Source of the DNA: Biomaibacter acetigenes
Lineage (GTDB): Bacteria > Bacillota > Thermosediminibacteria > Thermosediminibacterales > Tepidanaerobacteraceae
Assembly: GCF_003691585.1 (NCBI RefSeq)
Contig: NZ_CP033169.1
Span: 2,914,001 to 2,978,000 of the forward strand
DNA: 64,000 bases
Reading direction: 5' to 3'
Below are positions 36,510 to 52,231 of this stretch, one piece after another. How positions within the stretch are numbered: position 1 is the stretch's first letter; each line of letters begins with the position of its first letter. Below the pieces are notes generated by a model. It was not told the origin of the DNA and ran no database searches. It saw only the letters and a program-made list of their open reading frames with translations. The position numbers were made by a program, and so were the translations under genes.

Positions 36510-36720
36510 AAGCAATGCGAACTGCGGACAGGCCGCCCGGCCGGCAAAAAGCGGCAGCCTTAATTTCTCCGCTTAAAAATAAAAGGCCCGAGGCCCTGCA
36601 AACAACCTTTCCTACCATCCTGCCATCTCCCAATAAAAAAGTATTTGATTGGTATAGAAAGTCTCCTTCCTGCCGGAGATGCCCGGCACCTCCAGCAGCC
36701 TTGTTAATTGAATCAAAATT
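36510..36720. repeat. Degenerate copy of the nested palindromic element
   Basis: The stretch contains GGTATAGAAA, CTGCCGGAGATG and GGCACCTCC in the same order as the left arm of the element at 23.3 kb, plus CGGCCGGCAAAAAG similar to its inner stem. Most of the interior is lost. No gene is seen in these roughly 300 bases between paaK-2 and the PAS-GGDEF remnant. Confidence 0.55.
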
Positions 36721-36780
36721 ATTTCAGATATATAAGATTATACAATATTACGCATAAAAGATAAATACAATTTTGTTAAA

Positions 36781-37365
36781 TCAAGCAGTATAACGGACAC
36801 AGTTCCTGCCTTCGGATTTTGCCTCATACAGCATGCAGATCTTTCCCCATAATTTCTTCCCGGGAGTAGCCAAAAAGCTGCTCAGCTGCTGGGTTCCAAA
36901 AAATTACATTCCCCTGCCCGTCGATCATCACTATGGCATCCCGGGCGGATTCCATTATCGCCCTTAAAGTGGCCGCTTTTTTCGCAAGTTCCACCTCCAT
37001 AGCTCTGCGCTTGATGATATCTATGGCAAGTGCCATAGATACTTTTTCTCCCGTGTATTCTATAAGCTGCAGGTGGTTTTCTACAGGATAGGTGGAGCCG
37101 TCTCTGCGGCGGTGAACCGTACAGTATGTCATCTGTTCCTGTTTCCCGGCAGCAAGAGGCGCTATGAGATCCAAAAAACTCTGTCGGTTAAGGTCAGGGG
37201 TAATATCCAGGGGAGTCATATCTTTCAGTTCCTCGGCGGTGTATCCCAGGTTTTCTCGGGCGATGCGGTTGACTGTCACAAACTTTAACGTATCAAAACG
37301 GAATATATAAAATCTCTACCAGCGAATTTTCCACAACATGCCGGAAAAACTTTATTTCTTTCTCT
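36781..37365 (-). pseudogene. PAS-PAS-GGDEF diguanylate cyclase remnant
   Basis: The longest open piece (36824-37279) has a PAS domain with NLGYTAEELKDMTPLDI and a second PAS start (GNVIFWNPAAEQLFGYSREEIM). The upstream end (FFRHVVENSLVEIL) is in another frame. Directly after MGKDLH the sequence jumps, in a third frame, to LYEAKSEGRNCVRYTA and a stop, which is the typical C-terminus of a GGDEF domain. About 160 codons, including the GGDEF motif itself, are deleted. It once made c-di-GMP or sensed a ligand next to a c-di-GMP-regulated chemotaxis operon. Confidence 0.72.
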
Positions 37366-37472
37366 GTTTAAATTCACGCGTTGATATCAAAGACGATTTT
37401 AAATCGAGCAAAGTCCCCTGATCGTGATTGATAACCGCCGAATAGACTTCCATAAACTTCTCTCTGCCGTCC

Positions 37473-37620
37473 GGTCAGAGGATCAGGAAAGAAAGAGAAA
37501 AACTTGGGCTTACAAGGGAAAAATTTGCGGAAATCATAGGGCTTTCGGACTACTATGTAGGGCAGCTGGAACGCGGGGAGCGCCAGATGAGCTTAAATGT
37601 ACTGGTAAAAATTGCCGGGA
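37473..37620 (+). pseudogene. XRE-type HTH regulator fragment
   Basis: About 49 codons (GQRIRKEREKLGLTREKFAE then LSDYYVGQLERGERQMSLN) match the N-terminal helix-turn-helix of XRE-type regulators with the typical ERGERQMS motif. The C-terminus is gone, and a 9-bp stem (GAGGACCCA/TGGGTCCTC) follows at 37622-37651. No start signal is obvious. Confidence 0.65.
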
Positions 37621-37656
37621 GGAGGACCCATCCTGGGAAGTTTGGGTCCTCACCCG

Positions 37657-38420
37657 TCAGGGGAAATTGGAAATTTTAAATTTTAATTGGCTCACATCAT
37701 CTACCAAATTTTTGGACATATTACTCAAGGTCTGCGCCGATGATGCAACTTCCTGTGAGGAAGCATTTAATTCCTGTAAGGATGCCGCTATCTGTTCAGA
37801 AGATGCTGAAACCTCTTCTGCCATGGATGCAGCCGTTTCAATACTTTTTATAATAATATGCTTTTTGCCATTAATATGGCTCATATTATTGCTTATATCA
37901 CCGATTCTTGGAAAAATTTCTTCCACATTATTATTATTTCCTTAAAGGAATTAACTGAATTACCGATCACTGTAATCTGCCCGTTTAGTTTATCCTTCAT
38001 AATATCCGAAGTTTTAATAGCCAAATTGCTCTTATTCATAAGATTTTCAAGCAAACTACTTATATTTGAAGATGAAGTTTTTGATTGCTCAGCGAGTTTC
38101 CTAATTTCTTCGGCTACTACTGCAAAGCCTCTGCCTGCTTCCCCTGCTCGTGCCGCTTCTATCGTAGCATTTAGTGCGAGAAGATTGGTCTGCTCTGCAA
38201 TATCATTTATTAAATCAGTAATCTTACCGATTTGAGACAACTGTATTCCAAGTCCTTTTATTTCATTCCTTACATCAGTAAAGGATAAGTTAATGTCTTT
38301 TATAGCATCTTCAAGTATTGCCAAATCCCGGTTGCTGATTTGTGCTTTAGAGTTAATAATCTCGACTCTGGAATTAACTACTTCAAGTGCATTTAGTGTT
38401 TCATCATTTTTGTCCCAAAG
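37657..38420 (-). pseudogene. Methyl-accepting chemotaxis signalling domain fragment
   Basis: The cytoplasmic half of a chemoreceptor. [20 protein letters not shown] and [15 protein letters not shown] form the hairpin tip that contacts CheA and CheW. A frameshift near 37915 divides it. The second piece ends ASSAQTLSNMSKNLVDDVSQ. The sensor and membrane part are missing; the frame is open only from 38420. It lies downstream of the intact cheB and may be the remains of the receptor that the big soluble MCP replaced. Confidence 0.78.
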
Positions 38421-38564
38421 TTATTCATAATAGTATTTATGTTAGTTATATACCTAGGGAGGAGATTATTATGTGACTAAGTTGACTGAATTGCTAAAAC
38501 GGCTATGGTAACATCTAAAAAATAAAAAGCCACGGTTCCATTTTAGTCAAACCGATAAAAGATG

Positions 38565-39620
38565 TTAAATATGCTGTATTATTTGCTGAAAAATGTATGG
38601 CAACGGTACTTGAATATCCGCAAGACCTGCCTCATAAACCACTTTTGGCATGCCGTACACTATGCAGGACTCTTCTGCTTCAACAATAACTTTGCCGTTA
38701 TATTTTTTTACTTCCCTGCAACCCATCAGTCCGTCATTTCCCATACCTGTCATAATAACCGTCAAAAGCCTATCCTTAAATATTTGGGCAGCGGAAATTA
38801 GAGTAATATTGATAGAAGGTTTGTAAACTGTTTCTACTGGAGAGTAGTCCCCTATCCTCAAAATTACACTTCTGTCATCTTTCTTTTGCAAAAAAGTCTG
38901 TAAGCCGGCAGGAGCTATGTAGATATTCCCTGCTTCAAGTATGTCTCCGTCTGCCGCTTCCTTGACATGAAGGTTGCAGATCTTATCAAACCGTTCAGCC
39001 AGTGGCGCTGTAAAACCAGGCGGCATATGCTGAATAACAATGATAGGTACGCTTGTTTCTTTGGGAAAGCGGGGTAAGAGGGATTGCAATGCGGATGGCC
39101 CTCCTGTTGAACACCCGATAATTAACAGGTCGGTAGTTTTCTCTTTTAGCAGCACCTTGCTTTCTGGGTTATGTTGTGGCCTTTCAGTTTGAGTAATATT
39201 TTCCTGCAGAGGTACTTTTGCTCCCTCCGCAATTGCTTTTAATCTATCTAAAAAATCATTTGTGATTTCCTGCCCCACATCTTCTTTAATCAACACACTT
39301 TTAAGGAAGAAATCAATTGCCCCAAGTTCCAGTGCTTTTATCGTAGTCTTGGCCCCTTCCTCGGTGTAGTTACTCAACATGACCACAGGAATCGGGCAGG
39401 TCTTCATGATATGCTCCAAAGCAGCTATTCCATCCATTTCGGGCATTTCCACATCCATCGTCACTATATCGGGTTTAAGACGCTGGACCTTCTCTATGGC
39501 ATCAAGGCCATTCCGTGCAACTCCTATGACAAAGAACTGAGGGTCTCTTTCAATGATAAGGCTTATACACCTTCTCATAAAGGAGGAATCGTCTACCACT
39601 AACACCCCGTACTGCCGCAT
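38565..39620 (-). CDS. cheB: Chemotaxis methylesterase/deamidase
   Basis: CheB removes methyl groups from receptor glutamates. The 351-residue protein has a receiver domain (VVDDSSFMRR, phosphorylated Asp in TMDVEMPEMDG, Lys at FLKSVL) and the esterase domain with the catalytic triad in GCSTGGPSAL (Ser), VIQHMPPGFT (His) and MTGMGNDG (Asp). The ATG at 39620 overlaps the cheR stop; AAAGGAGG lies upstream. It is the last gene of the che operon. Confidence 0.95.
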   Translation of the reverse strand: MRQYGVLVVDDSSFMRRCISLIIERDPQFFVIGVARNGLDAIEKVQRLKPDIVTMDVEMPEMDGIAALEHIMKTCPIPVVMLSNYTEEGAKTTIKALELGAIDFFLKSVLIKEDVGQEITNDFLDRLKAIAEGAKVPLQENITQTERPQHNPESKVLLKEKTTDLLIIGCSTGGPSALQSLLPRFPKETSVPIIVIQHMPPGFTAPLAERFDKICNLHVKEAADGDILEAGNIYIAPAGLQTFLQKKDDRSVILRIGDYSPVETVYKPSINITLISAAQIFKDRLLTVIMTGMGNDGLMGCREVKKYNGKVIVEAEESCIVYGMPKVVYEAGLADIQVPLPYIFQQIIQHI

Positions 39621-40432
39621 AGAGAATTTCCTCCTTTCTTGTAGTAGAATATATTCTGTGTATATATTGTCTCAAAATCGCTTTTCATTCCCGTTATTGT
39701 CTCCGCATGACCTAAAAACAGGTATCCGCCCGGTTTTAATATATTAGAAAAATCGTCGACTATTCTTTGGATAGCCTTTGTATCAAAGTATATCAGCACA
39801 TTTCTGCATAAGATAATATCCGATTTTTCAATTTTCCCTGTTATGTTATTATCTAAAAGGTTCATGTATCTAAAATCAACCATCTCCATGATAGAGTCTT
39901 TGACCTTATAATCTTCCTCTAGTTCTATAAAAAACTTATCCAAGACGCCTTCGGGCATTTTCCTAAAAGAGAAAGACTTCTTATTATACACACCGCTCCT
40001 GGCTTTTTTAAGCACCTTTTTATTAATATCCGAAGCGATAATCCTCACAGCCCCTGGCTGGAACAACCCGGACTCTTCTACGAGTATTCCAATAGTATAA
40101 GGCTCTTCACCGCTGGAACATGCCGCGCACCATATCACTAATGGGTTTTCTGTTGTGCGGTCCTTATACTGGGGCAGTATGGCACTCTTAATTTCATCCA
40201 GCAAATTTTCTTCTCTAAAAAAATAGGTTTCATTTACGGTGATTAATTCAATTAGGGTATCCCATTCCTTTGCCTCCATTTTGAGGTATCCGCAGTACTC
40301 CCAGGCGGAAAGCCCCAATTCCTTCAGCCTTCCTGATATTTTAGGCTCAAGGGAGGAAAGGTTTTTCATGTAGTCGATGCCACAATAGTTATATATGAGT
40401 TCTGCTAATTGAACTAACCCGATTGTATCCAT
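39599..40432 (-). CDS. cheR: Chemotaxis methyltransferase
   Basis: CheR methylates receptor glutamates using S-adenosylmethionine. Residues about 1-75 form the all-helical N-terminal domain; the Rossmann domain follows with WCAACSSGEEPYTIG (cofactor loop), ASDIN, and ILCRNVLIYFD. The ATG at 40432 is chosen as the best-fitting start, since it begins the conserved N-terminal domain, though the ribosome-binding site is not ideal; a TTG at 40462 is the alternative. There is no TPR extension. Confidence 0.92.
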   Translation of the reverse strand: MDTIGLVQLAELIYNYCGIDYMKNLSSLEPKISGRLKELGLSAWEYCGYLKMEAKEWDTLIELITVNETYFFREENLLDEIKSAILPQYKDRTTENPLVIWCAACSSGEEPYTIGILVEESGLFQPGAVRIIASDINKKVLKKARSGVYNKKSFSFRKMPEGVLDKFFIELEEDYKVKDSIMEMVDFRYMNLLDNNITGKIEKSDIILCRNVLIYFDTKAIQRIVDDFSNILKPGGYLFLGHAETITGMKSDFETIYTQNIFYYKKGGNSLCGSTGC

Positions 40433-40514
40433 AGATATTACTACTGACTCCCACCTATACAAAGTTTATATCCGCCGGGAAGATATCTTTCCCAGCGGAT
40501 ACTGTGCCTTATAA

Positions 40515-43500
40515 TTATTTTTCAGTTAATTCCTCAAACGCTTCCTTGATTCCAGCAGAGTATCCAAACAATTCTTTGGTTACTGCCGCTGTTTGCTCCA
40601 CATCCTTGAAATTAAGGTCGACAACCCTGTTGATTTCACTTACGAATTTTACAAGCTGCGCAACTTCAGACGCCTGAACCCTGGTTGCCTCTGTAACCTC
40701 ACTTGCCTGGGCTGTCACATCCTTAATATTGACAATCAACTTGTCTACACCGGAAGCCTGATGCTTCATAGCCGCGGTAATTTGTTTTACCTGTTCTCTT
40801 GCATTGCCAACACCTTTGATAACTTCTTCCACACCTGCTGCCTGTTCCTTTGTAGCTTGAGTCACTTGGGCTGCCTGCCTGGTTACATTTTCCACGGCAA
40901 CTACAATATTCTGCCCCTGTTTCGCTTGTTCTTTAACGGCCACAGTTATTTGACGAACCTGCTCTCTTGCATTCTCAACGCTTTTTACTATATTGTCTAC
41001 ACCTGCCGCCTGTTCCTTTACAGCACTGGCCACAAGGGCTGTCTGGTCTGTCACATTCTGTACTGACTTTACAATATCCTGCCCTTGTTTAGCCTGTTCC
41101 TTGACCGCCAACGTAATCTGCCTTACCTGCTCACGGGCATTCAAAACACCCTTTATGATTTCCTCAACGCCTTTGGTCTGCTCCTTAACAGCTACAGCCA
41201 CTCGCTCAGCCTGGTCATTTACATTTTCTACAGATTTAACGATGTTCTGCCCTTGGTTTGCCTGTTCTTTAACAGCTACAGTTATTTGCCTCACCTGTTC
41301 ACGGGCATTAGTTACGCCTTTGATGACTTCTTCTACGCCCTTGGCCTGCTCTTTGGTTGCCTGTGTTACCCGGGCCGCTTGGTCGGTTACGTTCTGGGCA
41401 GCGGCTGTAATGTTTTGCCCTTGCTTTGCCTGTTCCTTTACAGCTACAGTAATCTGTCTTACCTGCTCACGGGCATTCAAAACACCCTTTATAATATTTT
41501 CCACTCCCTGAGCTTGTTCCTGGGTTACTTTCGTAATCTGTGCAGCCTGGTCCTTCACATTTTCAACTGCCGTAACTATGTTCTGTCCTTGCCTGGACTG
41601 CTCCTTCATGGCAGCAGTAATCTGCTTAACCTGTTCTCTTGCATTGGCAACACCCTTGATAACCTCTTGCGCACCTGCCGCCTGTTCTTTGGCTGCAACC
41701 GCAACCTGTGCCGTTTGTTTCGCCACATTTTCAATCGCCTTGAGGATATTCTGCCCATGGTTGGCCTGCTCTTTGACCGCCACCGTAATTTGCCTTACCT
41801 GCTCACGGGCATTGGCTACACCCTTTATAATTTCATCTACGCCTTTGGATTGTTCGGTTACAGCCTGCGATACCTGAGCAGCTTGTTTATTTACATTCTC
41901 TACCGCTATCACAATATTCTGCCCCTGTTTCGCCTGCTCCTTAACAGCAACAGTAACCTGGCGGACCTGCTCTCTGGCATTAGCAACACCCTTAACGATA
42001 TTCTCAGCACCTGCAGCCTGTTCTTTTGTACTCTGTGTAACCATTGCCGCCTGGTTGGTAACAACCTTCATAGCTTCAATAATTTTTGCACTGCCATTAT
42101 TCTGCTCCTCAGTTGCAACTGTAATCTGACGAATTTCGGCATTTACATTTTCCACGCCCTCTACTATCTTTTCAATGGCTTTACCGGCTTCATCACTTAA
42201 TTTTGTTCCATTTTCGACCTTTTGGGTACCGACTTCAATAGCCTTTATGGCATTCGAAGTTTCACCCTGGATACCTTTAATAAGGGCTGATATTTCTTTC
42301 GTTGCAGTAGCAGTCCTTTCAGCAAGTTTCCTTACCTCGTCCGCAACCACTGCAAAACCTTTGCCATGTTCGCCGGCTCTGGCCGCTTCAATTGCCGCAT
42401 TTAATGCAAGGAGGTTGGTCTGCTCTGCTATATCGTCTATGACCTCTATAATACTGCCAATCTTTTCAGAACTCTTTCCAAGGTTAATGATAACATTTTC
42501 GGCCCTATGGATAACCTCTGAAATTTCCTTAATGGCCACCAGGGTATCAGCAACAGCTTTCTGGCCATCTTTAGCATCAGCTTGTACTTTATCGCTTAAT
42601 TTGTTTACATTCTGTGCGTTCTGGGCAACCTGGCTGATGGAGGCCGCCATGTTTTCAACTACCTGAAATGTTTCACCGGCGGATTTCTGGAGCTGTTCTG
42701 CACTGCTTGCAACGCTCTGGATTGATTTGCCCATTTCTTCTATTGAAGCGGATATTTCTTCAACTGATATTGCTGTACTTTCGGCATTTCCCGATACCTG
42801 CTGGATGGAGGCTACTATCTCCTGGACCGCAGCAGCCGCTTCATCTGCCGAACCCTTCAGGCTTTCGGCGTTGCCCGCTACGCCTTTAATGGATTTGCCC
42901 ATCTGTTCAATGGAGGAGGAAATCTGTTCTACCGAGCTTGCGGTACTATCTGCATTGCCTGCTACCTGCTGGATGGAAGCCACCATTTCCTGGATGGCTG
43001 CGGCCGCTTCATCTGCAGAGCCCTTCAGGCTCTCGGCGTTGCCGGCAACTCCCTTGATGGACTTGCCCATCTGCTCAATGGAAGATGAGATTTGCTCTAC
43101 CGAGCTGGCAGTTGATTCTGAATTCCCAGCTACCTGCTGGATGGAGGCTACTATCTCCTGCACTGCAGCTGCGGCTTCTTCCGCCGATCCTTTTAGGCTT
43201 TCGGCGTTGCCCGCTACGCCCTTGATGGATTTGCCCATCTGCTCTATTGCCACCGAAATCTCTTCAACTGATTTTGCTGTACTTTCGGCATTTCCCGATA
43301 CCTGCTGGATGGAGGCTACTATCTCCTGGACCGCAGCAGCCGCTTCATCTGCCGAACCCTTCAGGCTTTCGGCGTTGCCCGCTACGCCTTTAATGGATTT
43401 GCCCATCTGTTCAATGGAGGAGGAAATCTGTTCTACCGAGCTTGCGGTACTATCTGCATTGCCTGCTACCTGCTGGATGGAAGCCACCATTTCCTGGATG

Positions 43501-44276
43501 GCTGCGGCCGCTTCATCTGCAGAGCCCTTCAGGCTCTCGGCGTTGCCGGCAACTCCCTTGATGGACTTGCCCATCTGCTCAATGGAAGATGAGATTTGCT
43601 CTACCGAGCTGGCAGTTGATTCTGAATTCCCAGCTACCTGCTGGATGGAAGCTACTATCTCCTGCACTGCAGCTGCGGCTTCTTCCGCCGATCCTTTTAG
43701 GCTTTCGGTGTTGCCGGCAACTCCCTTGATGGATTTACTCATTTGTTCTATAGAGGCAGAAATTTCTTCAACAGAATTTGCAGTGGACTCCGAATTCCCT
43801 GCAACCTGTTGTATGGAGGCGACAATCTCCTGAATGGAAGAAGTAACTTCTTCCGCTGAAGCAGCCATGCTTTCCGCATTGCCGGCTACTCCCTTAATGG
43901 ATTTACCCATTTGTTCGATAGATGAGGAAATTTGTTCTATAGAACCGGCGGTACTCTCAGAGTTGCCTGCAACCTGCTTGATACTTGCAGCCATCTCACC
44001 CAGAGAATTCTGTGACTGCTCTGCAAGCCTCGCCAGTTGTTCTGCATTCTTCACTATCCCGTCAATTGACCTGGATAGTTCACTCGTCATTTTATTGGCC
44101 GACTCAGCGGCAGAGGACTGTTCTCTTGTGCCTTTTGTTATCTGCTCAGTAATAGCAGATAAATCTTTTAACTTAGAATCTAGTTTTTCAGAAGAGTTTA
44201 CCGCCATATTTATCTTTTGGGTAATACCCGAATTTCCCATAAGCATCATTGCAAGATTTTTTGTAAATTTGCCCAT
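40515..44276 (-). CDS. Giant soluble chemoreceptor with matched repeat arms
   Basis: A 1253-residue protein with no signal peptide, no membrane helix and no recognised ligand domain. After a 98-residue head, residues 99-546 are eight units of 56 residues ([11 protein letters not shown]... through [13 protein letters not shown]...). Residues 547-717 hold the signalling hairpin with [20 protein letters not shown] at the tip (around residue 632). Residues 718-1165 are another eight 56-residue units ([12 protein letters not shown]... ending NAREQVRQ), and residues 1166-1253 are the tail. The repeat blocks are equally far from the tip on both sides. The result is an antiparallel coiled-coil about three times the usual length. 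It lies between cheA and cheR, so it is the dedicated receptor of the system. The C-terminus lacks a CheR-tethering pentapeptide. Confidence 0.9.
40782..42125 (-). repeat. Eight 168-bp units, C-terminal arm of the MCP
   Basis: Eight in-frame units of 56 codons each (residues 718-1165). The units diverge more from one another than those of the N-terminal arm, but all end in NAREQV(R/K)Q. Confidence 0.9.
42639..43982 (-). repeat. Eight 168-bp units, N-terminal arm of the MCP
   Basis: Eight in-frame units of 56 codons each (residues 99-546). A block of about three units repeats with an offset of 504 bp (for example 42781 matches 43285), with only a few differences over more than 400 bp, a sign of recent unequal recombination. 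Confidence 0.92.
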
Positions 44277-44326
44277 TATATATACCTCCTATTTTTTTTA
44301 ATTTAATAATGTTTGCCCTTTGGCTG

Positions 44327-46423
44327 TTATCTGTCGCCGACTTCAATATCACAATTCTGATAATCATCAACTGCCGTTACTTTACGGCTGCTTACCATTT
44401 TAGAAATTCCTACTACATCCAGAATGCATGCTACACTGCCATCACCCAAAATTGTAGCTCCCGAAAAGCCTTCAATCTTACCTATATACATTCCAAGAGG
44501 TTTTACAACAACCTCCTGGTTCCCCACAAGTTCATCTACCACAAGCCCCAAACGTTTTTCTGCCACGCCCAGAACTACTATAAAGACATTTCTCCCCCTC
44601 TTGCGGCGGGGGATATTGAAATAGTCATGCAACCATATCAAAGGTAAGACCTTTTCTCGTATTACCGATACAGCCTGACCTTTAACAAACTCTATTTCTC
44701 TTTCGGGCTTGCGGACTATTTCAATTACATTGCTCATGGGCAGGGCATAGGTCTCATCGTTTATCTTAACTAACAATCCTGTAAGGATAGCCAGCGTAAG
44801 GGGCAGCTTAATGGTAAACTTTGTGCCTTCGCCTTGCTTCGTCTCTACGTCAATAATCCCATTTAGTCTGTCGACATGATTTCTTACTATATCCATCCCT
44901 ACACCACGGCCAGAAATGTCATTGACCGTTTGAGAAGTTGAAAACCCCGTATGGAAAATAAGGTTTATCACTTCCTGCTCTGTTAAGTTTTCGGCATCCT
45001 GTGATGTAATTATTTGTTTTTTAATAGCGGCCTGTTTAACCTTCCGTAAGTCAATCCCTCTTCCGTCATCCTCAATTGTAAGAATTACGTGGTTTTCCTG
45101 ATGGAATGCTGTGATACGCAGTATTCCTTTCAGAGGTTTACCCGTCTTTTTGCGGATATCTGGAGTTTCAATGCCATGGTCTATGGCGTTCCGTATAAGG
45201 TGGATTAACGGGTCGGTTATTTCTTCTATTATGGTCCTGTCCATCTCAGTATCCCCACCTTCGAGGATCAACTCCACTTGCTTATTTAAGGATTCGGACA
45301 GGTCCCTTACCATCCGTGGAAAGCGGTTAAATAGTTGTTGAATAGGCAGCATACGGGATTTCATAACACCTTCTTGAAGTTCGCCGATTACTCTTGACAC
45401 ACGGTTTGATATTCCCAAAAGGTCATCGATTACATCATCAGAGGAATAACGATTATGTAGAATATTCCCGACCTGCAGGATTCTTGCCTGTTCGATCACC
45501 AACTCGCCCACGAGGTTCATCATTTTTTCAAGCCTTTCTACATCCACACGCACTGTTTGGGTAACCCTTTTTTCGTAATTTGCAGTTTTGGAAGTAGTAT
45601 CAATATCAGTTTCTTTTTGTTGGGCCTTTTCAGGCTGTTTATAATTTTGTAGAGTTTCGCCGTAGAATGGAACGACTTTAACTTCATCAATATCCATTAG
45701 TTCATCCCTTGACTTTGCTTCGAAGGTTGATGCGTCCATTTGTGTGATAACAAGATACGAAACCCTATCGATTTCGGCATCATCTGGTGTTTCCAACACA
45801 TCCGGGTCAGTATAGATCACGGTACCCAGCTCATTAAAGTAGTTTAATATCAGGCAAGCACGGGCTGATTTCATCAGACTTCCTTCTGAAATCTTAACAT
45901 GACAAATCAGAACGTTTAAACCCGACTTTACTGCCTGCTCCAGTTGCGCCTGCTGGTCCGAACCAAGTGTAAACTCAACGAATTGATTGCTTTCATCTTT
46001 AGTTTTGCCAGTATCAACTTCGTTATATTTCTCTGGCAGCACTTCTCTTAAACTGTTAATAATAGGGGCTATATCAGTCTTAATATCCTTTCTGTCAGAT
46101 ACAAAATCTTCTTTTAGCATCCTTAAATGGTCCAAACACTGAAAGAGTACATTAATGACCGGTTTTGATATTTTTAGAAGATGGTTGCGTACCCTGTCTA
46201 ACACATTCTCCATTTCGTGGGTCAGGAGTTTCATTTTTTCAAATCCCATCGCTGATGAAGAGCCTTTCAATGTATGAGCTATGCGAAATAACTTTTGTAC
46301 TATTTCTGGAGTCTCACCTTTTTGTTCCAACTCTAAAATGCTTTGTTCGAGAAGTTGCAACTGTTCTTCTGTTTCGTCAAGAAATGCCCCTATCATTTCT
46401 GAGCTTTCAAATATTCCAGCCAT
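44327..46423 (-). CDS. cheA: Chemotaxis histidine kinase
   Basis: A 698-residue CheA. P1 with the phosphorylated His in AHTLKGSSSAMGF; a linker region containing a P2-like segment (residues about 150-250); P3 dimerisation (VRVDVERLEKMMNLVGELVIEQ); P4 kinase with N box HLIRNAIDHGIE, G1 DDGRGID and G2 SGRGVGMDIVR; and P5, the CheW-like domain with ISVGN-type contacts to receptor and CheW. It lies 50 bases upstream of the receptor gene. Nothing is missing. Confidence 0.95.
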   Translation of the reverse strand: MAGIFESSEMIGAFLDETEEQLQLLEQSILELEQKGETPEIVQKLFRIAHTLKGSSSAMGFEKMKLLTHEMENVLDRVRNHLLKISKPVINVLFQCLDHLRMLKEDFVSDRKDIKTDIAPIINSLREVLPEKYNEVDTGKTKDESNQFVEFTLGSDQQAQLEQAVKSGLNVLICHVKISEGSLMKSARACLILNYFNELGTVIYTDPDVLETPDDAEIDRVSYLVITQMDASTFEAKSRDELMDIDEVKVVPFYGETLQNYKQPEKAQQKETDIDTTSKTANYEKRVTQTVRVDVERLEKMMNLVGELVIEQARILQVGNILHNRYSSDDVIDDLLGISNRVSRVIGELQEGVMKSRMLPIQQLFNRFPRMVRDLSESLNKQVELILEGGDTEMDRTIIEEITDPLIHLIRNAIDHGIETPDIRKKTGKPLKGILRITAFHQENHVILTIEDDGRGIDLRKVKQAAIKKQIITSQDAENLTEQEVINLIFHTGFSTSQTVNDISGRGVGMDIVRNHVDRLNGIIDVETKQGEGTKFTIKLPLTLAILTGLLVKINDETYALPMSNVIEIVRKPEREIEFVKGQAVSVIREKVLPLIWLHDYFNIPRRKRGRNVFIVVLGVAEKRLGLVVDELVGNQEVVVKPLGMYIGKIEGFSGATILGDGSVACILDVVGISKMVSSRKVTAVDDYQNCDIEVGDR

Positions 46424-46435
46424 ACCACACCCTCC

Positions 46436-46864
46436 TTACGCCTCATAAAGCACTTTATCGATTTTTAATATGCTGACAACTCCTTCATCTGTAATACCAA
46501 TACCTTCAAAATAGTCACCATTGATCCCTGCTACCATTTCAGGAGGGGGTTGGATTTCTAAAAACTTAATAACCTGATTTACCCTGTCAACCACTATGCC
46601 TACCATTTCATCTCTGCTTTTTACAACAACGATGCGGGTTGATTTAGTGACAGTATAATTATTTAGGCCAAACCGCTTATGTAAATTGATAACTGGGACA
46701 ATCTTGCCGCGAAGGTTGATAATTCCCTCTAAATAAGGCTTGCTGTTATGGACAGGGGTAACCTTTTGCATTTTAATAATCTCATACACATCACTAATTA
46801 TCAGCGCGTACTTTTCATTGGCCAACTCATATTCAACATACTGGGCATCCAATAATACACTCAA
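46436..46864 (-). CDS. cheW: Chemotaxis coupling protein
   Basis: A 142-residue SH3-like protein that links receptor and CheA. EYELANEKYALIISDVYEI and LEGIINLRGKIVPVINL (the receptor-binding region with the conserved Arg) are typical. It follows cheY and precedes cheA by about ten bases. Confidence 0.95.
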   Translation of the reverse strand: MSVLLDAQYVEYELANEKYALIISDVYEIIKMQKVTPVHNSKPYLEGIINLRGKIVPVINLHKRFGLNNYTVTKSTRIVVVKSRDEMVGIVVDRVNQVIKFLEIQPPPEMVAGINGDYFEGIGITDEGVVSILKIDKVLYEA

Positions 46865-46914
46865 CTTATTTCACCTCCTTTTCCAAAATTTTGTTATACT
46901 CTATGGAGATAGAG

Positions 46915-47268
46915 TTACAGCTTGCTTAAAGTCCTGATTAAATAATCCTCTTTGTACGGCTTAACAACAAAACCCTTTGCCCCAAGCTTAACCGCTTCTC
47001 TTACATAAGATTCCTGCCCTAAAGCACTGATAATAATAATTTTTGAATTAGGGTTCAATTTCCTGATCTCCCTTAATGCTTGGATACCGTCCATCTCAGG
47101 CATGGTAATATCCATTGTGACAATATCGGGTTGCAATTCTTTATATTTGCTTATTGCTACAGAACCGTTTTCAGCCTCACCAACCACCTGAAAGCCATTC
47201 CTCTCAAGCACAGTTCTTATAGCAAATCTCATAAAAGCCGCATCATCAACAATGAGAATTTTTTTCAT
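46915..47268 (-). CDS. cheY: Chemotaxis response regulator
   Basis: A 117-residue single-domain receiver: acidic pair in IVDDAAFMR, phosphorylated Asp in TMDITMPEMDG, switch Ser/Thr at ISALGQ and Lys at VVKPY. The ATG at 47268 has GGGGTGA upstream. It is the first gene of the operon and lies directly after the c-di-GMP riboswitch and terminator. Whether it targets a flagellar switch or another output cannot be said, since no motility genes are in the window. Confidence 0.95.
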   Translation of the reverse strand: MKKILIVDDAAFMRFAIRTVLERNGFQVVGEAENGSVAISKYKELQPDIVTMDITMPEMDGIQALREIRKLNPNSKIIIISALGQESYVREAVKLGAKGFVVKPYKEDYLIRTLSKL

Positions 47269-47313
47269 TGTCAATTTCACCCCTTTCATCAACCAAGATT
47301 CTATAAAAATTAA

Positions 47314-47342
47314 AAAGTAGGTCAGTATAAGCTGCCTACTTT
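47314..47342 (-). terminator. Riboswitch-controlled terminator before cheY
   Basis: Stem AAAGTAGG/CCTACTTT with a 13-base loop, then a T-rich tract on the minus strand. The 5' part, GTAGGCAGC, can pair instead with GGCTGCC of the upstream c-di-GMP riboswitch, so the two structures exclude each other. Confidence 0.75.
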
Positions 47343-47389
47343 AGTAAATAAATACAGAAATTTAAAAAACAAATTGTATAAAACTTACT

Positions 47390-47485
47390 AATTGGCAGCC
47401 CAACCGTCATGGCATTTGTATGCTGTAGACTTGCGGCTTTGTGCCCTCGCCTTTCGACGAGTTTACCCTTTTCAATTAATTAATT
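47390..47485 (-). promoter_or_regulatory. c-di-GMP-I (GEMM) riboswitch upstream of the che operon
   Basis: On the minus strand the conserved GEMM core can be read: AGGGTAAAC, a stem CTCGTC-GAAA-GGCGAG with a GAAA tetraloop, GGCACAAAGCCGCAAGTC, then a variable stem, and GACGGTTGGGCTGCC with its tetraloop-receptor side and ligand-binding G/C positions. About 90 bases before an intrinsic terminator, which precedes cheY. Binding of c-di-GMP should decide whether GGCTGCC is held in the riboswitch or freed to block the terminator stem. Confidence 0.85.
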
Positions 47486-47673
47486 ATAACGTTAAATTTT
47501 TTTAAAGTAATAATAAAACAATTTAGATATTTTGTTTCATTACACAATCATTTGAAAACCACTATAATCAAAAAATTATAGTAATCTAAAATTATTCTGT
47601 TGGCAAAACTGTTTGCATGGATATGAAACAATTTATATACTATGGATAGAAATATTGCCTAAGGAGGAACAAT

Positions 47674-48234
47674 ATGACAGTTGAACCAATAAGAGATAAA
47701 GTTAAAATTAAGCAAATGTACTATTATTTAAATGGAAAAGACCCTAAGTATGGACTGCTGTTTAAATTCGGTTTAAATACAGGATTGAGAATTAGTGATA
47801 TTTTGCCCATAAAGGTTTCTGATATTTTTAATAGTTCAGGTGAATACCGAGATTATCTTGTATTAAAAGAAAAGAAAACCGGAAAAGAGAAGAAAATAAA
47901 GCTGAATAGTGCTCTTAGGAAAGCAATTGATTTATATATAAAAGAACAAAAACTTTCATCGGACTCTTATTTATTTTTCAGTAAGAAGGGTGATTATATA
48001 AGACGTGTTCAGGCCTATAAAGTGTTAAAAGAGGCTGCAAATGTCTGTGGTATTGAGAATTTTGGAACTCATAGTTTGCGAAAAACCTGGGGGTATTGGA
48101 CATACAAGATGTCACGATATAATATTGGTTTAATAATGGATACGTTCAATCACAGTTCTCAAGCAATTACGCTTCGCTATATTGGGGTAAATCAAGACCA
48201 AAAAGATGAACTTTATTCTCTTGTGCAATTTTAA
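47674..48234 (+). CDS. Small tyrosine recombinase
   Basis: A 186-residue integrase-like protein consisting of just the catalytic domain. LNTGLRISDIL contains the first Arg, LKEKKTGKEKKIKL the Lys hairpin, GTHSLRKTWGYW the His-x-x-Arg box, and FNHSSQAITLRYIG the His and the nucleophilic Tyr. The N-terminal arm/core-binding domain of XerC-type integrases is absent. AGGAGG lies upstream of the ATG. The surroundings are AT-rich and next to an insertion sequence, pointing to imported DNA. Confidence 0.85.
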   Translation: MTVEPIRDKVKIKQMYYYLNGKDPKYGLLFKFGLNTGLRISDILPIKVSDIFNSSGEYRDYLVLKEKKTGKEKKIKLNSALRKAIDLYIKEQKLSSDSYLFFSKKGDYIRRVQAYKVLKEAANVCGIENFGTHSLRKTWGYWTYKMSRYNIGLIMDTFNHSSQAITLRYIGVNQDQKDELYSLVQF

Positions 48235-48251
48235 GGTTACATAATAAAAAT

Positions 48252-48295
48252 AACCTATGACAATGTTACTCATAATGTCATAGTCATAGGTTCTA
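48252..48295 (+). terminator. Terminator-like hairpin after the recombinase
   Basis: AACCTATGAC and its inverted partner around TCATAGGTT, followed by TTCTATTTT. The 300 bases from here to the IS element contain nothing else recognisable. Confidence 0.55.
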
Positions 48296-48533
48296 TTTTA
48301 TATTCTGTTTTTATTCCAGAATAGCAAAGTATGATAAAAAAATTTAGATAAATTTGTAACTATATGCAGGAAAATACATTTTAATGTAGAATATTATTAT
48401 ATTGTGCCTGATGAAACAAAATATCTATATTGTTTCCTACTCACATAAATTAATTACTTGTAAAACCAATTTATCAGTAAACACAAAGGAATATTTATAT
48501 TTCTATTTTTTATCTTGTTTTACATATTTATAT

Positions 48534-50110
48534 CACTAGCGTTGCATAAAATCTTTTTAATAAAAGTCAAGTAAAAACTTGGTATACCTTAATATACCAT
48601 ATATGATAATTTATGGAAGTATCATTTTTTCTCTTATGTTAAAAGGAGCAACCGCCTATGGGTAGTCCTTTTCCATATTTTACCACTGTATTTAGTTAAA
48701 TTATTGGATCGTAACTTAGGTCATCCAAAAAGTCTGCTTCGCCTTGTACCACCTGCCTTAAGGTTTCTTGAAAAATTGTTTCATGATCCACCTTCCGTCG
48801 TTGGCCTTTGGATTTTCTCGTTGGTCGGTAAAGCTTTTTAACGAAGCTTGTGAATGGTTCTAAAAGGCAGGTATGCAGTAATCTCTTGATAGTTAGTAAT
48901 GGCCCTCTGTAACATGTTTTTAACTTTAGAAGCAGCAATAAGCAATAGGTCATCAGCGCAATAAATAATTGGTTTTCCACCGCCCATTGGCTTAGTCCGT
49001 AAAAATGCTTTATGTGTAGGTGCTGTTTTATCCAATTGAAGAATAATTCTATTTGCCATCTGTTGCGGTATATATCGGCTATTCCCTTTGCAGTTATTTT
49101 AAAGTCGTTTGTTATGATGATTATTGGTTCTCCCTGGGTATTCTGGACTTCAATCAATCTTAGGCGATGTTTCATCCGGTTAATGTTTTCTTTGCCCAAG
49201 TAAACGTATTGTTCACGTTTTATTATACCATTGGGATCTAAAGGAAGTTCTTCATCTACTTTAATTTGAGCATTGCTTTTTAAGCGGGTGACAAAGCGAG
49301 TGCCGTTTTCACAGTAGTTATCGAACTTTTCGTAGTCTACATATCCTCTGTCAAATACATTCAGGGCATCTTTATCTTCAACTACCAGTGTATCCATCTG
49401 AGTTTTGTCAGAAGGTCTTGCCGGGGTTATTATGGCTTTATCAGGGGTTACTCCTTCTTCGAAGAAGTTAAGGCGCAGGTGAAGTTTAACTCCGGCCTTG
49501 GTTTTTCTAAAATGTGCCCATCTATATTGTGAAAGACAAAGACTGATAGTAGATGAATCAATGAGGTATATGCGACCGATGTTTTGCATCGGGTCTTTAA
49601 AGCTCATTTCCTTAGTTGTTTTTTGGATTGTATTTTTTAAAAGCATTTGAGTTATTTTTGGGTCAGTACTTCTTAACTTGCGTGAGATCTGGGATGCGCT
49701 GATGGAATCAAGCTCAATTTTTTCGCTGAATTTATCATCATTTAGAGCATTACTGATATCTCGTAATCCTTGTAGTTGTTCTAGTTGTGCATAGACCATA
49801 AGCTGTATAAATTTTAAGGTAGTTAGTTTCTTTACGTATTTATCGACCCCCGAGGAAATTAAATTTTGAAGGATACTTTTGTTAAATAATGGATTAAACA
49901 GTTGACTTAATGTGGAATTTATGGTATCCTTGCCTTGCATTTTGTTGCTCCTTTATATTAGGGATTTGGGCAAGGACTACCCCATATCTCTATTATAAAG
50001 GATTTTTTCTAAAAGTACAAGGCCTTTTCTTGATTTTTCTTCAGTTTTATTTAATTTTCTTTGCTGTTTTATGGTTGACAAATAAATTTTTTATTTATGT
50101 AACGCTAGTG
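48534..50110. mobile_element. Complete IS4-type insertion sequence with target duplication
   Basis: A 1577-bp element. Terminal repeats are CACTAGCGTTGCATAAA (left) and the complement of CACTAGCGTTACATAAA (right), 16 of 17 bases identical. A 9-bp direct repeat TATTTATAT flanks both sides (48525-48533 and 50111-50119). Inverted subterminal segments (GGAGCAAC...GGTAGTCC) also occur near both ends. The transposase gene lies inside, on the minus strand. The intact state suggests a recent, possibly still active, insertion. Confidence 0.93.
48696..49940 (-). CDS. IS4-family DDE transposase
   Basis: A 414-residue transposase. The catalytic acids are expected in YLIDSSTISL (first Asp), VFDRGYVDYEKF (second Asp) and the YRNRWQIELFFNWIKQHL motif, the Y-(2)-R-(3)-E-(6)-K signature of IS4. 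There is no frameshift. The start lies close to the right terminal repeat of the element. Confidence 0.92.
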   Translation of the reverse strand: MQGKDTINSTLSQLFNPLFNKSILQNLISSGVDKYVKKLTTLKFIQLMVYAQLEQLQGLRDISNALNDDKFSEKIELDSISASQISRKLRSTDPKITQMLLKNTIQKTTKEMSFKDPMQNIGRIYLIDSSTISLCLSQYRWAHFRKTKAGVKLHLRLNFFEEGVTPDKAIITPARPSDKTQMDTLVVEDKDALNVFDRGYVDYEKFDNYCENGTRFVTRLKSNAQIKVDEELPLDPNGIIKREQYVYLGKENINRMKHRLRLIEVQNTQGEPIIIITNDFKITAKGIADIYRNRWQIELFFNWIKQHLHIKHFYGLSQWAVENQLFIALMTYCLLLLLKLKTCYRGPLLTIKRLLHTCLLEPFTSFVKKLYRPTRKSKGQRRKVDHETIFQETLRQVVQGEADFLDDLSYDPII

Positions 50111-50262
50111 TATTTATATACTTTTTATACTTAACTTATCACTTTCTTTTTAAACCTGTTTCTAGTGATCAGGAGATTCTTGAAATGTTACAAGATATCT
50201 TCCTTGGTAAGTATAAAAAACTTGCTTGATTTTAAAGTCTATGGTTTTCTAGCTTTATCTAG

Positions 50263-50348
50263 ATGCTGTCAAGGCACCGAGGAATAAATGGGAAGGGCCC
50301 GCTTTGCGGGAGGGAGCCCGTTTATGCTGCCAAAGACCTTGACAGCAT
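50263..50348. repeat. 86-bp nested palindrome
   Basis: The outer stem ATGCTGTCAAGG/CCTTGACAGCAT is 12 bp and perfect. A 9-bp stem (284-292/317-325, offsets from 50000) and a CCCGC-TTT-GCGGG hairpin (298-310) lie inside it. No gene. It lies in the 750-base stretch between the IS4 element and the IS110 fragment; the rest of that stretch holds TGACATTTTT repeats at 50459-50515, a hairpin ATGGGAG...CTCCCAT near 50420-50441 and no coding sequence. Confidence 0.75.
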
Positions 50349-50458
50349 TTGGACAGGTATCCTTTTGCCTTTTAAGGCAGGCTTTTAGCCTAGCCTTCTC
50401 CCTTCCGGCGAGGATGGGAGTGTAGGGGGCTAAGCTCCCATAATATTATTTGTTTAAG

Positions 50459-50516
50459 TGACATTTTTATACGATAATTAACTGGATTTTATGTCATTTT
50501 TAGGTGACATTTTTAA
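50459..50516. repeat. TGACATTTTT repeats, possible IS21-like end
   Basis: GTGACATTTTTAT, ATGTCATTTTTAGG and GTGACATTTTTAAAAG occur within 60 bases. Multiple short repeats of this kind are typical of IS21-type element ends. No istA or istB gene remains. Confidence 0.4.
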
Positions 50517-50865
50517 AAGATATTGACAGCCAGTTTTAAAGCCATGAAGATAAAACAGCTCGCCTGAACCGGTATGCTTTTCTATATAAAAAATAGATAT
50601 TTTTCAATCCAGTAGGAGGGGGTGATTGACCCCCGTCCTCTCACCTATGAAAAAATGCAAGTCCTGCTCCGAAAATTCTCAAGCAATTACAGTTGTCAAA
50701 TGTAAAAAAGGCAATATGATACTACGCCAGGTCATTTCGATTTTTTAACCAGGCTTGCTTTGGCTAGCTTGCTTAATTGTTCACCATAGCTCAGCAGATC
50801 AGTCAATGCTATTCCCCTTGACGGAGGCGGACTGAAGCTCACTTCATATCCTGCAAGCTAAATAA

Positions 50866-51665
50866 TTATCCTGTTCCAAATAGCCAGGACCGAGTTTCTT
50901 TCTCCGATACATCTTCGATGCCATCAATTACTCGCAACAGTTCATTCATGTCTACTACGTACGCTTGAGCTTGTTTGGTTAAACTCTTTAGTTTTCTTTC
51001 CAGCAAATTTTTTGTGAGTTCCATGTATTCTTCTTGGCGTGTTAGAACCGCCCATATTATATGCAGCAACTTACGTGCTGTAGCTACAATCGCAATTTTG
51101 TGCCCTTTCTTCTCCTTTAAACGCAAATAAAAAGATCGTAATTTCCCTTTGCTTTGAATTGCTCGCTGTGCACACTGAACCAGTATCCAACGTAGGGTGC
51201 TGCGGCCTTCTTTTGTTATGTTACCGGCATAGCGTGTTTTGCCGGATTGATGAACAGATGGAACCAGTCCCGCGTAACATGCCAGTTTTTTAGGTGACGA
51301 AAAGCGCGAAATTGGCCCAATCTCTGCAAGAATAGTCAATGCGCTCAAAACCGAAATGCCAGGTATACCCATCAGTAATTTTACATTTGGGTTCTCTTTC
51401 GCCCTAGCACACAAATCTGCTTCGAGGGCCGCCATTTCTTTTTGTACAGTATCCAGCAGTTTTAATGATGAACAAACTATGATTTGCTCTGTTTCCGGCA
51501 ACGAAATATTCTCTAAAAATTTTCTTCCGTTTTTCCCAAATAGATCGCTCCATGGAGACTGGATTCCATTGCGAATTAACGCAGCGTGAATCTTGTTTTT
51601 CAGCATAGTACGGATCTTTGCGAGACGGATTCGGTGATGAAGCAGAACTCTTAATTGGTATTCAT
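50866..51665 (-). pseudogene. IS110-family transposase fragment
   Basis: The last 265 codons of an IS110-type DEDD recombinase. The C-terminal Tnp20 domain is complete (LMGIPGISVLSALTILAEIG, KLACYAGLVPSVHQSGKT, the Ser-containing GNITKEGRSTLRWILV), but the RuvC-like catalytic domain is missing upstream. The reading frame continues to about 51665 (LRVLLHHRIRLAKIRT), where the sequence changes abruptly to the group II intron fragment. Confidence 0.87.
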
Positions 51666-52228
51666 CCTTGTGGGGATATCTTCTCGGGTTGTGCCAGATA
51701 CATACTCGGCCCTCCCTAGGACCCTTGCGGCTTCACCGCTTCTTTCCCAGGGTAGGCCCCTTGCGGGGTTTTCTGCTGTCGTCGATAGTTTTACGAACTT
51801 GCCAAGTTTTATCCCTCGCTTCGTGTTCGGCCCTTCGTCGGCCTGACGTCTGTGCCGGCTACTATGGCCTCTGCTGACTTCTGACGGTTCAGCCGGGCCT
51901 CTCAGCCCGGGTTGTTAGTTTCCCTAACGTTTCCGCCAACACCCACCTTCGGTGGGTACCCGCCCGGGTAAGAGCGATAGCCTTCGCCCCGTATACCTGC
52001 CGCATTTACTACACAGTCCCTTGGCAGCGCTGGATTTCGTTTTGTGATGCAAACTCATCCGAACTGTATAGCCTTGTATGCGGTTCGTGTTCCTCAGGTC
52101 GTGGCTTGCCTACAGCTTCCTTCAGATTCTACCTCACGATAGACACCCTTGCTGTTCAGCTAATGGTCGCCGCTGCCAGCCCCATAGCAGACTTTCACTG
52201 CTTAAGCTTCCGCCCATGCCGGGCGCAC
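51666..52228 (-). mobile_element. Group IIC intron, 5' fragment
   Basis: On the minus strand the piece starts GTGCGCCCGGCATGGGCG, the conserved group II 5' end, and continues with GTGAAAGTCTGCTATGGGGC and GTCAGCAGAGGCCATAGTAG, sequences typical of bacterial group II intron domain I and of the region preceding the reverse-transcriptase gene. The intron is cut at about 51666 by the IS110 fragment, and no reverse transcriptase or domain V is left. It begins exactly after a terminator T-tract, as class C introns do. A 26-bp hairpin inside it is shared with the element at 23.4 kb. Confidence 0.82.
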
Positions 52229-52231
52229 ATC

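Follow-up and report, generated by a model that had tools for sequence, protein, structure and literature searches.

A c-di-GMP-I riboswitch predicted to control a complete che operon by transcription termination in Biomaibacter acetigenes

A riboswitch leader ahead of a che operon

The window, meaning the whole 64,000-nucleotide stretch of the Biomaibacter acetigenes contig analysed here, carries on its minus strand the co-directional genes cheY, cheW, cheA, a gene for a giant MCP, cheR and cheB, which overlap or are separated by gaps of 11-52 bp in the list of open reading frames (ORFs) (Table 1). These genes form a complete Che operon behind a leader and are presumed to be co-transcribed. 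A preliminary description of this DNA had recognized a GEMM core upstream of cheY and proposed a search of the minus strand with the GEMM-I covariance model. That search returned a strong match to RF01051, at 80.1 bits against an Rfam gathering score of 35, in which model positions 1-87 of 87 align without a gap. All 22 of the 22 modelled pairs are standard, P2 with its GAAA loop and P3 are intact, and the leader fold beats 200 of 200 shuffles (z -4.4). The ungapped alignment also places in the window nucleotides equivalent to Vc2 G20, A47 and C92, which we take to be the position numbers of the ligand-contact nucleotides; a G at position 20 confers a preference for c-di-GMP over cGAMP. Vc2 G20 and the ligand-pairing C87 of Cd1 are both named in the available part of PMC9262584. 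Judged on its sequence, the window aptamer is a full member of the c-di-GMP-I (GEMM-I) class and is predicted to bind c-di-GMP.

Table 1. Features of the riboswitch leader, the che operon and the island in the window, with the GGDEF-HD-GYP genes of related loci
Feature	Position	Strand	Evidence or remark
c-di-GMP-I riboswitch aptamer (RF01051)	47391..47477	-	80.1 bits, E 3.9e-14
P1 5' strand (ATTAATTG), partner 47394-47387	47473..47480	-	sequence; P1 present in constrained fold
Candidate -10 element TATAAT	47483..47488	-	inferred from sequence; no good -35 seen, -35 weak
Switching strand GCTGCC, aptamer 3' end; antiterminator partner 47336-47331	47394..47399	-	folding, pairing score
Antiterminator extension 5' strand TTAGTAAGT	47383..47391	-	folding, spacer shuffles
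Antiterminator extension 3' strand ATTTACTAA	47341..47349	-	folding, spacer shuffles
GGCAGC within terminator 5' arm	47331..47336	-	folding, pairing score
Intrinsic terminator hairpin, AAAGTAGGCAG-CTTATA-CTG-A-CCTACTTT	47314..47342	-	-12.3 kcal/mol; trimmed hairpin -11.8
Terminator U-rich tract	47305..47313	-	sequence
cheY, 117 aa from ATG 47268 (ORF list start TTG 47292); Shine-Dalgarno-like AAAGGGGTG upstream	46915..47268	-	PF00072
cheW	46436..46864	-	PF01584
cheA	44327..46423	-	Hpt, P2, H-kinase_dim, HATPase_c and CheW domains
Soluble giant MCP, 1253 aa, 56-residue repeats in both arms	40515..44276	-	PF00015; hydropathy; repeats
cheR	39599..40462	-	PF01739
cheB	38565..39620	-	PF01339 and PF00072
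MCP remnant, two frames	37660..38420	-	PF00015 1.9e-32 on 37896-38420, weak on 37660-37941
15.6-kb island: riboswitch, che operon, integrase-like ORF, transposases, two group II intron matches	36637..52231	.	flank comparison with G001
GGDEF-HD-GYP gene, locus L089	2980-4023		directly behind c-di-GMP-I riboswitch, ahead of cheW
GGDEF-HD-GYP gene, locus L087	10070-11107		as above
GGDEF-HD-GYP gene, locus L103	7385-8410		as above
GGDEF-HD-GYP gene, locus L104	3881-4924		as above

An intrinsic terminator lies between the aptamer and cheY, where the preliminary description had placed it, as a hairpin followed by a T-rich tract. A simple consensus terminator scan of positions 46800-48300 listed nothing; our guess is that the bulged A in the stem accounts for the miss. 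The leader has a candidate -10 element, and a consensus promoter scan (9 of 12 rule) found no promoter at the leader.

The giant receptor encoded within the operon has no clear transmembrane segment, as is also the case for its orthologs (L013-L016, L087, L088 and L105-L109). Repeats of 56 residues, or eight heptads, flank its signalling tip on both sides. N-arm and C-arm lengths lie within 16 residues of each other in 11 of the 13 receptors measured, ranging from 407/396 to 746/732, so that both arms seem to grow together. The exceptions are G452 (517/732), in which one side is exactly four repeats shorter than in G463, and Calidifontibacillus (378/137).

A 15.6-kb island around the operon

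In the sister species G001, the sequences that match the flanks of the island (up to 36636 and from 52232 in the window, at 85 and 95% identity) are 134 bp apart. The difference is therefore either a 15.6-kb insertion in the window or a deletion in G001, and an insertion is favoured because the cluster is absent from the rest of the family. In 12 other genomes of the family, the best CheA match (1.6e-141) is comparable to that of the genome's own flagellar-type CheA (5e-131), and two of the 12 (G007 and G009) have no CheA at 1e-100. The closest cluster, G417, belongs to another family; its CheA is 71% identical, and it too adjoins a group II intron match and transposases.

A truncated PAS protein (36827-37315) and an MCP remnant lie at the downstream edge of the island. 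A degraded diguanylate-cyclase gene had been described at this end of the cluster, and that candidate was rejected: a six-frame search of the genome for GGDEF at E 1e-3 gave eight places, none of them in the 64-kb window, and the interval 36.8-38.4 kb contains the MCP remnant and the PAS fragment.

Competing helices in the leader

The switching strand GCTGCC (47399-47394) can pair with GGCAGC in the terminator 5' arm (47336-47331) over 6 bp, or 9 bp with G-U pairs included, a score matched by 11 of 500 shuffles of the arm. This is the pairing of six to seven bp between GGCTGCC and GGCAGC anticipated earlier, and it amounts to 7 of 7 pairs when taken as GGCUGCC/GGCAGCU. A second, inner helix, between TTAGTAAGT and ATTTACTAA, had gone unmentioned and brings the antiterminator to 6 + 9 bp in total; when the spacer was shuffled, 25 of 1000 sequences gave an equally stable antiterminator.

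Growing transcripts were folded with either the Rfam pairs or the antiterminator enforced, in a model that excludes tertiary contacts and ligand. For transcripts that end between 47387 and about 47345, the fold with aptamer and P1 either is the minimum or lies no more than 1 kcal/mol above it. With the terminator 5' arm made, the antiterminator gains the advantage, which is 5 kcal/mol at 47339 and 12 at 47327; for the full-length leader the antiterminator reaches -52.6 kcal/mol against -41.8 for aptamer plus terminator. Given this difference of about 11 kcal/mol, the ligand would have to act kinetically over the 60-nt delay. For the G377 leader, the antiterminator is lower by 3.5-6.9 kcal/mol shortly before the terminator 3' arm appears, and at full length aptamer plus terminator is ahead by 1.5 kcal/mol. 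This short-lived antiterminator resembles the transient Cd1 antiterminator described in the available part of PMC9262584.

The antiterminator occupies the strand bearing the Vc2 C92 equivalent and would thus be incompatible with a bound aptamer, whereas aptamer and terminator can coexist. Since the antiterminator would exclude the bound aptamer and the terminator is compatible with it, an OFF switch is predicted. The earlier statement that the ligand-bound and terminator states exclude or allow one another holds as far as mutually exclusive pairing is concerned; it left the direction open, and folding now makes OFF the most likely.

Related clusters and their leaders

Orthologous clusters were sought with the window CheA as query. 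A public genome collection yielded seven loci, one of which (L018, 33% identity over 46 residues) was dropped and stands outside all counts. A draw of genomes from the phylum contained the cluster in 5 of 398, among them the window's genome and G027, which is more distant, and further draws gave 6 of 20 in the G142 family, 1 of 22 in the Lutispora order and 8 of 206 in the C. magnum family. L067 and L068 entered the RNA-family scan only, and L069 and L070 entered no count. The nearest named clusters are those of Lutispora and Clostridium.

In a CheA tree of 24 rows, the window's clade comprises 16 clusters. In seven of these, RF01051 matches the region upstream of the che genes with a score above the cut-off (the window, Lutispora thermophila, G142, G377, G425, G424 and G417). 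The match in G108 is truncated and, at 34.0 bits, falls short of the cut-off, and the remaining eight have no riboswitch upstream. A hidden riboswitch in the Clostridium and Caryophanon clusters was looked for in L013-L016 at E values as high as 1 and in L105-L109 at the gathering score, with no match in either set. A TetR-family gene lies just upstream of the che genes in the Clostridium-type clusters L013, L014, L108 and L109, which are without the riboswitch. RF01051 has a single match in the whole genomes of G142, G377 and G108, and 10 in that of Lutispora. The eight riboswitch rows of the tree require at least two changes on the best tree, and 42% of bootstrap trees give them one origin; a single origin of the riboswitch is neither shown nor excluded by these sequences.

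Four further arrangements were seen at the margins of this set. G058 was not counted, as the first gene behind its riboswitch is FapA-like and an opposite-strand ORF precedes cheW. Calidifontibacillus (L017) was not counted either, its riboswitch being downstream of the receptor gene and not ahead of the che genes. Two are leads: in G038, the riboswitch is followed by an MCP gene, a further ORF, a gap of 0.5 kb and then cheW, and in G037 a c-di-GMP-I-GGC match (RF03167; L071, 10556-10662) is separated from cheA, 2.7 kb downstream, by other ORFs.

Additional evidence for the switching helix came from comparison of the leaders. The 7-bp helix reads GGCUGCC/GGCAGCU in the window, GGUUGCC/GGCAAUC in G417 and GGUUGCC/GGCAACC in G142, G377, G425, G424 and G108. 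Counted by eye, 7 of 7 pairs form in all three leader types; at one position both sides have changed, from C-G to U-A, and the others changed via G-U. The numbers of shuffles per 500 that reach the helix score are 11 for the window, 8 for G417, 11 for G142, 19 for G377, 11 for G425, 12 for G424 and 35 for G108. The last five leaders are near-copies, giving about three independent leaders; the sequence evidence for the helix is moderate for any single leader and better across these three. Compared with the window, the G417 and G142-type leaders have spacers of other lengths and other terminator sequences. This helix is not shared by the Lutispora leader, for which 112 of 500 shuffles reach the score and the U-run of the hairpin is poor.

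Two of the aptamers are damaged: P2 is gone in G417, and P3 has lost its 5' half in G108. The 7-bp helix and the terminator are retained in both leaders. If an OFF switch loses its sensor, the genes stay on, and this would account for the tolerance of such damage.

A c-di-GMP enzyme within the operon

An intact GGDEF-HD-GYP gene lies between the riboswitch and cheW in G142, G377, G425 and G424, and three of the four are 92% identical to the fourth. In G142, a gene for an IS110-type transposase also stands between the riboswitch and the GGDEF-HD-GYP gene. In G108, only fragments of the gene are left, with one match of 23 residues and a shorter one of 11 (E 0.06), and the aptamer is broken too. 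The combination of riboswitch and GGDEF-HD-GYP gene in one genus makes feedback possible. In the available part of the review PMC6366702, c-di-GMP enzymes are called rare as targets of these switches.

These arrangements lead us to a tentative proposal, which may well prove wrong: the riboswitch could be a portable plug that needs no host protein and ties a mobile Che island to any c-di-GMP pool, and in one genus the addition of a GGDEF-HD-GYP gene would make it a feedback cassette complete in itself. In G108, the c-di-GMP parts of this cassette would have decayed together.

Model for control of the operon

In the model that we consider likely, the che operon is under an OFF switch, a c-di-GMP-I riboswitch of the Cd1 type that acts via transcription termination. 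The aptamer would be the first part that RNA polymerase makes, and the computed path has it fold with P1. At high c-di-GMP, the bound aptamer would retain GCUGCC and the P1 3' strand; the GGCAGC arm would then pair with its own 3' arm, and the resulting terminator would leave cheY-cheW-cheA-MCP-cheR-cheB untranscribed. At low c-di-GMP, the GGCAGC arm would invade the aptamer 3' end, including the ligand-pairing C, and polymerase would be expected to read through once the computed antiterminator has formed. OFF is the most likely direction on the folding data; ligand binding and termination are predicted.

The leader could instead be a relic of transfer, with an aptamer that folds and has no regulatory effect in the present host. 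The island is missing in the sister species, the G417 and G108 aptamers are damaged, and no consensus promoter is listed at the leader, all of which would fit. However, this aptamer scores 80 bits and has only standard pairs among those modelled, and the 10 further RF01051 elements and eight GGDEF places of the genome suggest that the host does signal with c-di-GMP; we consider this reading unlikely.

We also think it improbable that the leader is an ON switch, in which ligand would block the terminator and the Che system would serve a surface-attached or sessile state. An ON class I switch does exist, B. thuringiensis Bc2 (available part of PMC6366702), and the sequence of the Lutispora leader, in which the P1 3' strand overlaps the hairpin, favours ON in that case. 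In the window, G417 and G142-type leaders, however, the terminator does not overlap the aptamer and the antiterminator alone does, and the antiterminator helix has been retained in decayed aptamers. It is very doubtful that the riboswitch serves another neighbour or a short RNA, with cheY expressed mainly from another promoter: an integrase-like ORF and transposases lie just upstream of the leader, and the cheY start about 40 nt past the terminator leaves some space for a start site, but riboswitch and terminator face cheY in a leader of about 210 nt, and this order recurs in G417 and, with the GGDEF-HD-GYP gene between, in G142, G377, G425 and G424.

Other c-di-GMP-I riboswitches of the genome

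The window's genome (G000) holds 11 RF01051 elements. One of them (1494741-1494829) is separated by 157 bp from a downstream FlgB-like gene, which heads a co-directional run that extends to 1524516 and includes a second CheA and a CheW-like gene. The other genes of this flagellar run were named by eye, and its continuity at 1511438-1511734, where only an opposite-strand ORF is listed, is assumed. The switch of this run shares with that of the window the Rfam family, a terminator, downstream che genes and a helix, 10 bp long there (3 of 500 shuffles), that joins the P1 3' side to the terminator arm. It differs in that the che genes are about 24 kb downstream, inside the flagellar gene run. Judged from coordinates alone, a riboswitch lies 23-26 kb upstream of a same-strand CheA in at least six other genomes (G001, G014, G018, G022, G029 and G046). 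Control of che genes by a c-di-GMP-I switch via the flagellar operon may be common in these bacteria, with the stand-alone operon as the unusual case.

Because the flagellar/che run is also headed by a c-di-GMP-I riboswitch, control of che genes by such a switch is not unique. The preliminary description had called control of the whole Che cassette notable; a complete che operon does lie behind the switch, but its control would be less out of the ordinary than that description implies.

Further RF01051 elements of the genome precede an HD-GYP gene, a dCache MCP, a Big_5 surface protein and a camelysin-like gene. Five c-di-GMP-I elements (226293, 227213, 322447, 325589 and 2801087; L073, L079 and L080), some of them damaged-looking, lie near small HTH_16 or similar-looking genes, of which one HTH gene was tested; they may represent a multiplied element.

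Relation to known riboswitches and implications

The closest parallel is C. difficile Cd1 (Cdi-1-3), which heads the flgB operon and, in the available parts of PMC9262584 and PMC6200980, shares with the window the aptamer class, a terminator beyond the aptamer and, as predicted here, transcriptional OFF control. In both, the antiterminator takes the aptamer 3' strand including the ligand-pairing C; that of Cd1 pairs with the ligand-binding C87 and its neighbour (available part of PMC9262584). The window leader thus has the Cd1-type architecture, in which the terminator is separate from the aptamer and the antiterminator joins the aptamer 3' strand to the terminator 5' arm. Whereas Cd1 heads a flagellar operon, the window switch heads a stand-alone mobile Che operon and has a 60-nt spacer and the 9-bp antiterminator extension. 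C. difficile has seven functional class I switches, all OFF, according to the available part of PMC6366702. Switches of single MCP genes, known from B. anthracis (same source) and present in the window's genome at 900029-900116, have the same aptamer class and a chemotaxis target, but have one receptor as their target, where the window has kinase, adaptor and adaptation enzymes. B. thuringiensis Bc1 (available part of PMC11218506) shares the class I aptamer and a long expression platform with terminators, and differs in having two terminators and another host and context.

The type of switch and its mechanism are already known. Among titles and abstract openings, with the first published GEMM gene lists outside this scope, no c-di-GMP riboswitch heading a stand-alone che operon was found. 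What appears new is the target, a mobile che operon standing on its own. This pairing of switch and operon recurs in several lineages, in one of which it comes with a c-di-GMP enzyme of its own. The novelty of the target is uncertain.

c-di-GMP acts on motility via flagellar genes, the motor or single receptors. If the model is correct, c-di-GMP would in this case set the supply of an entire signalling pathway, including kinase and adaptation enzymes, and control of the che operon would run in the same direction as that of the flagellar gene run in the same cell. With a similar leader on the flagellar/che run, both chemosensory systems would go off together at the switch to sessile life. Switch and operon would have arrived jointly on the mobile island and would respond to the c-di-GMP pool of the host. 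The recurrence of the riboswitch on mobile-looking clusters suggests a way to tie transferred sensory systems to the lifestyle of the host without a protein regulator.
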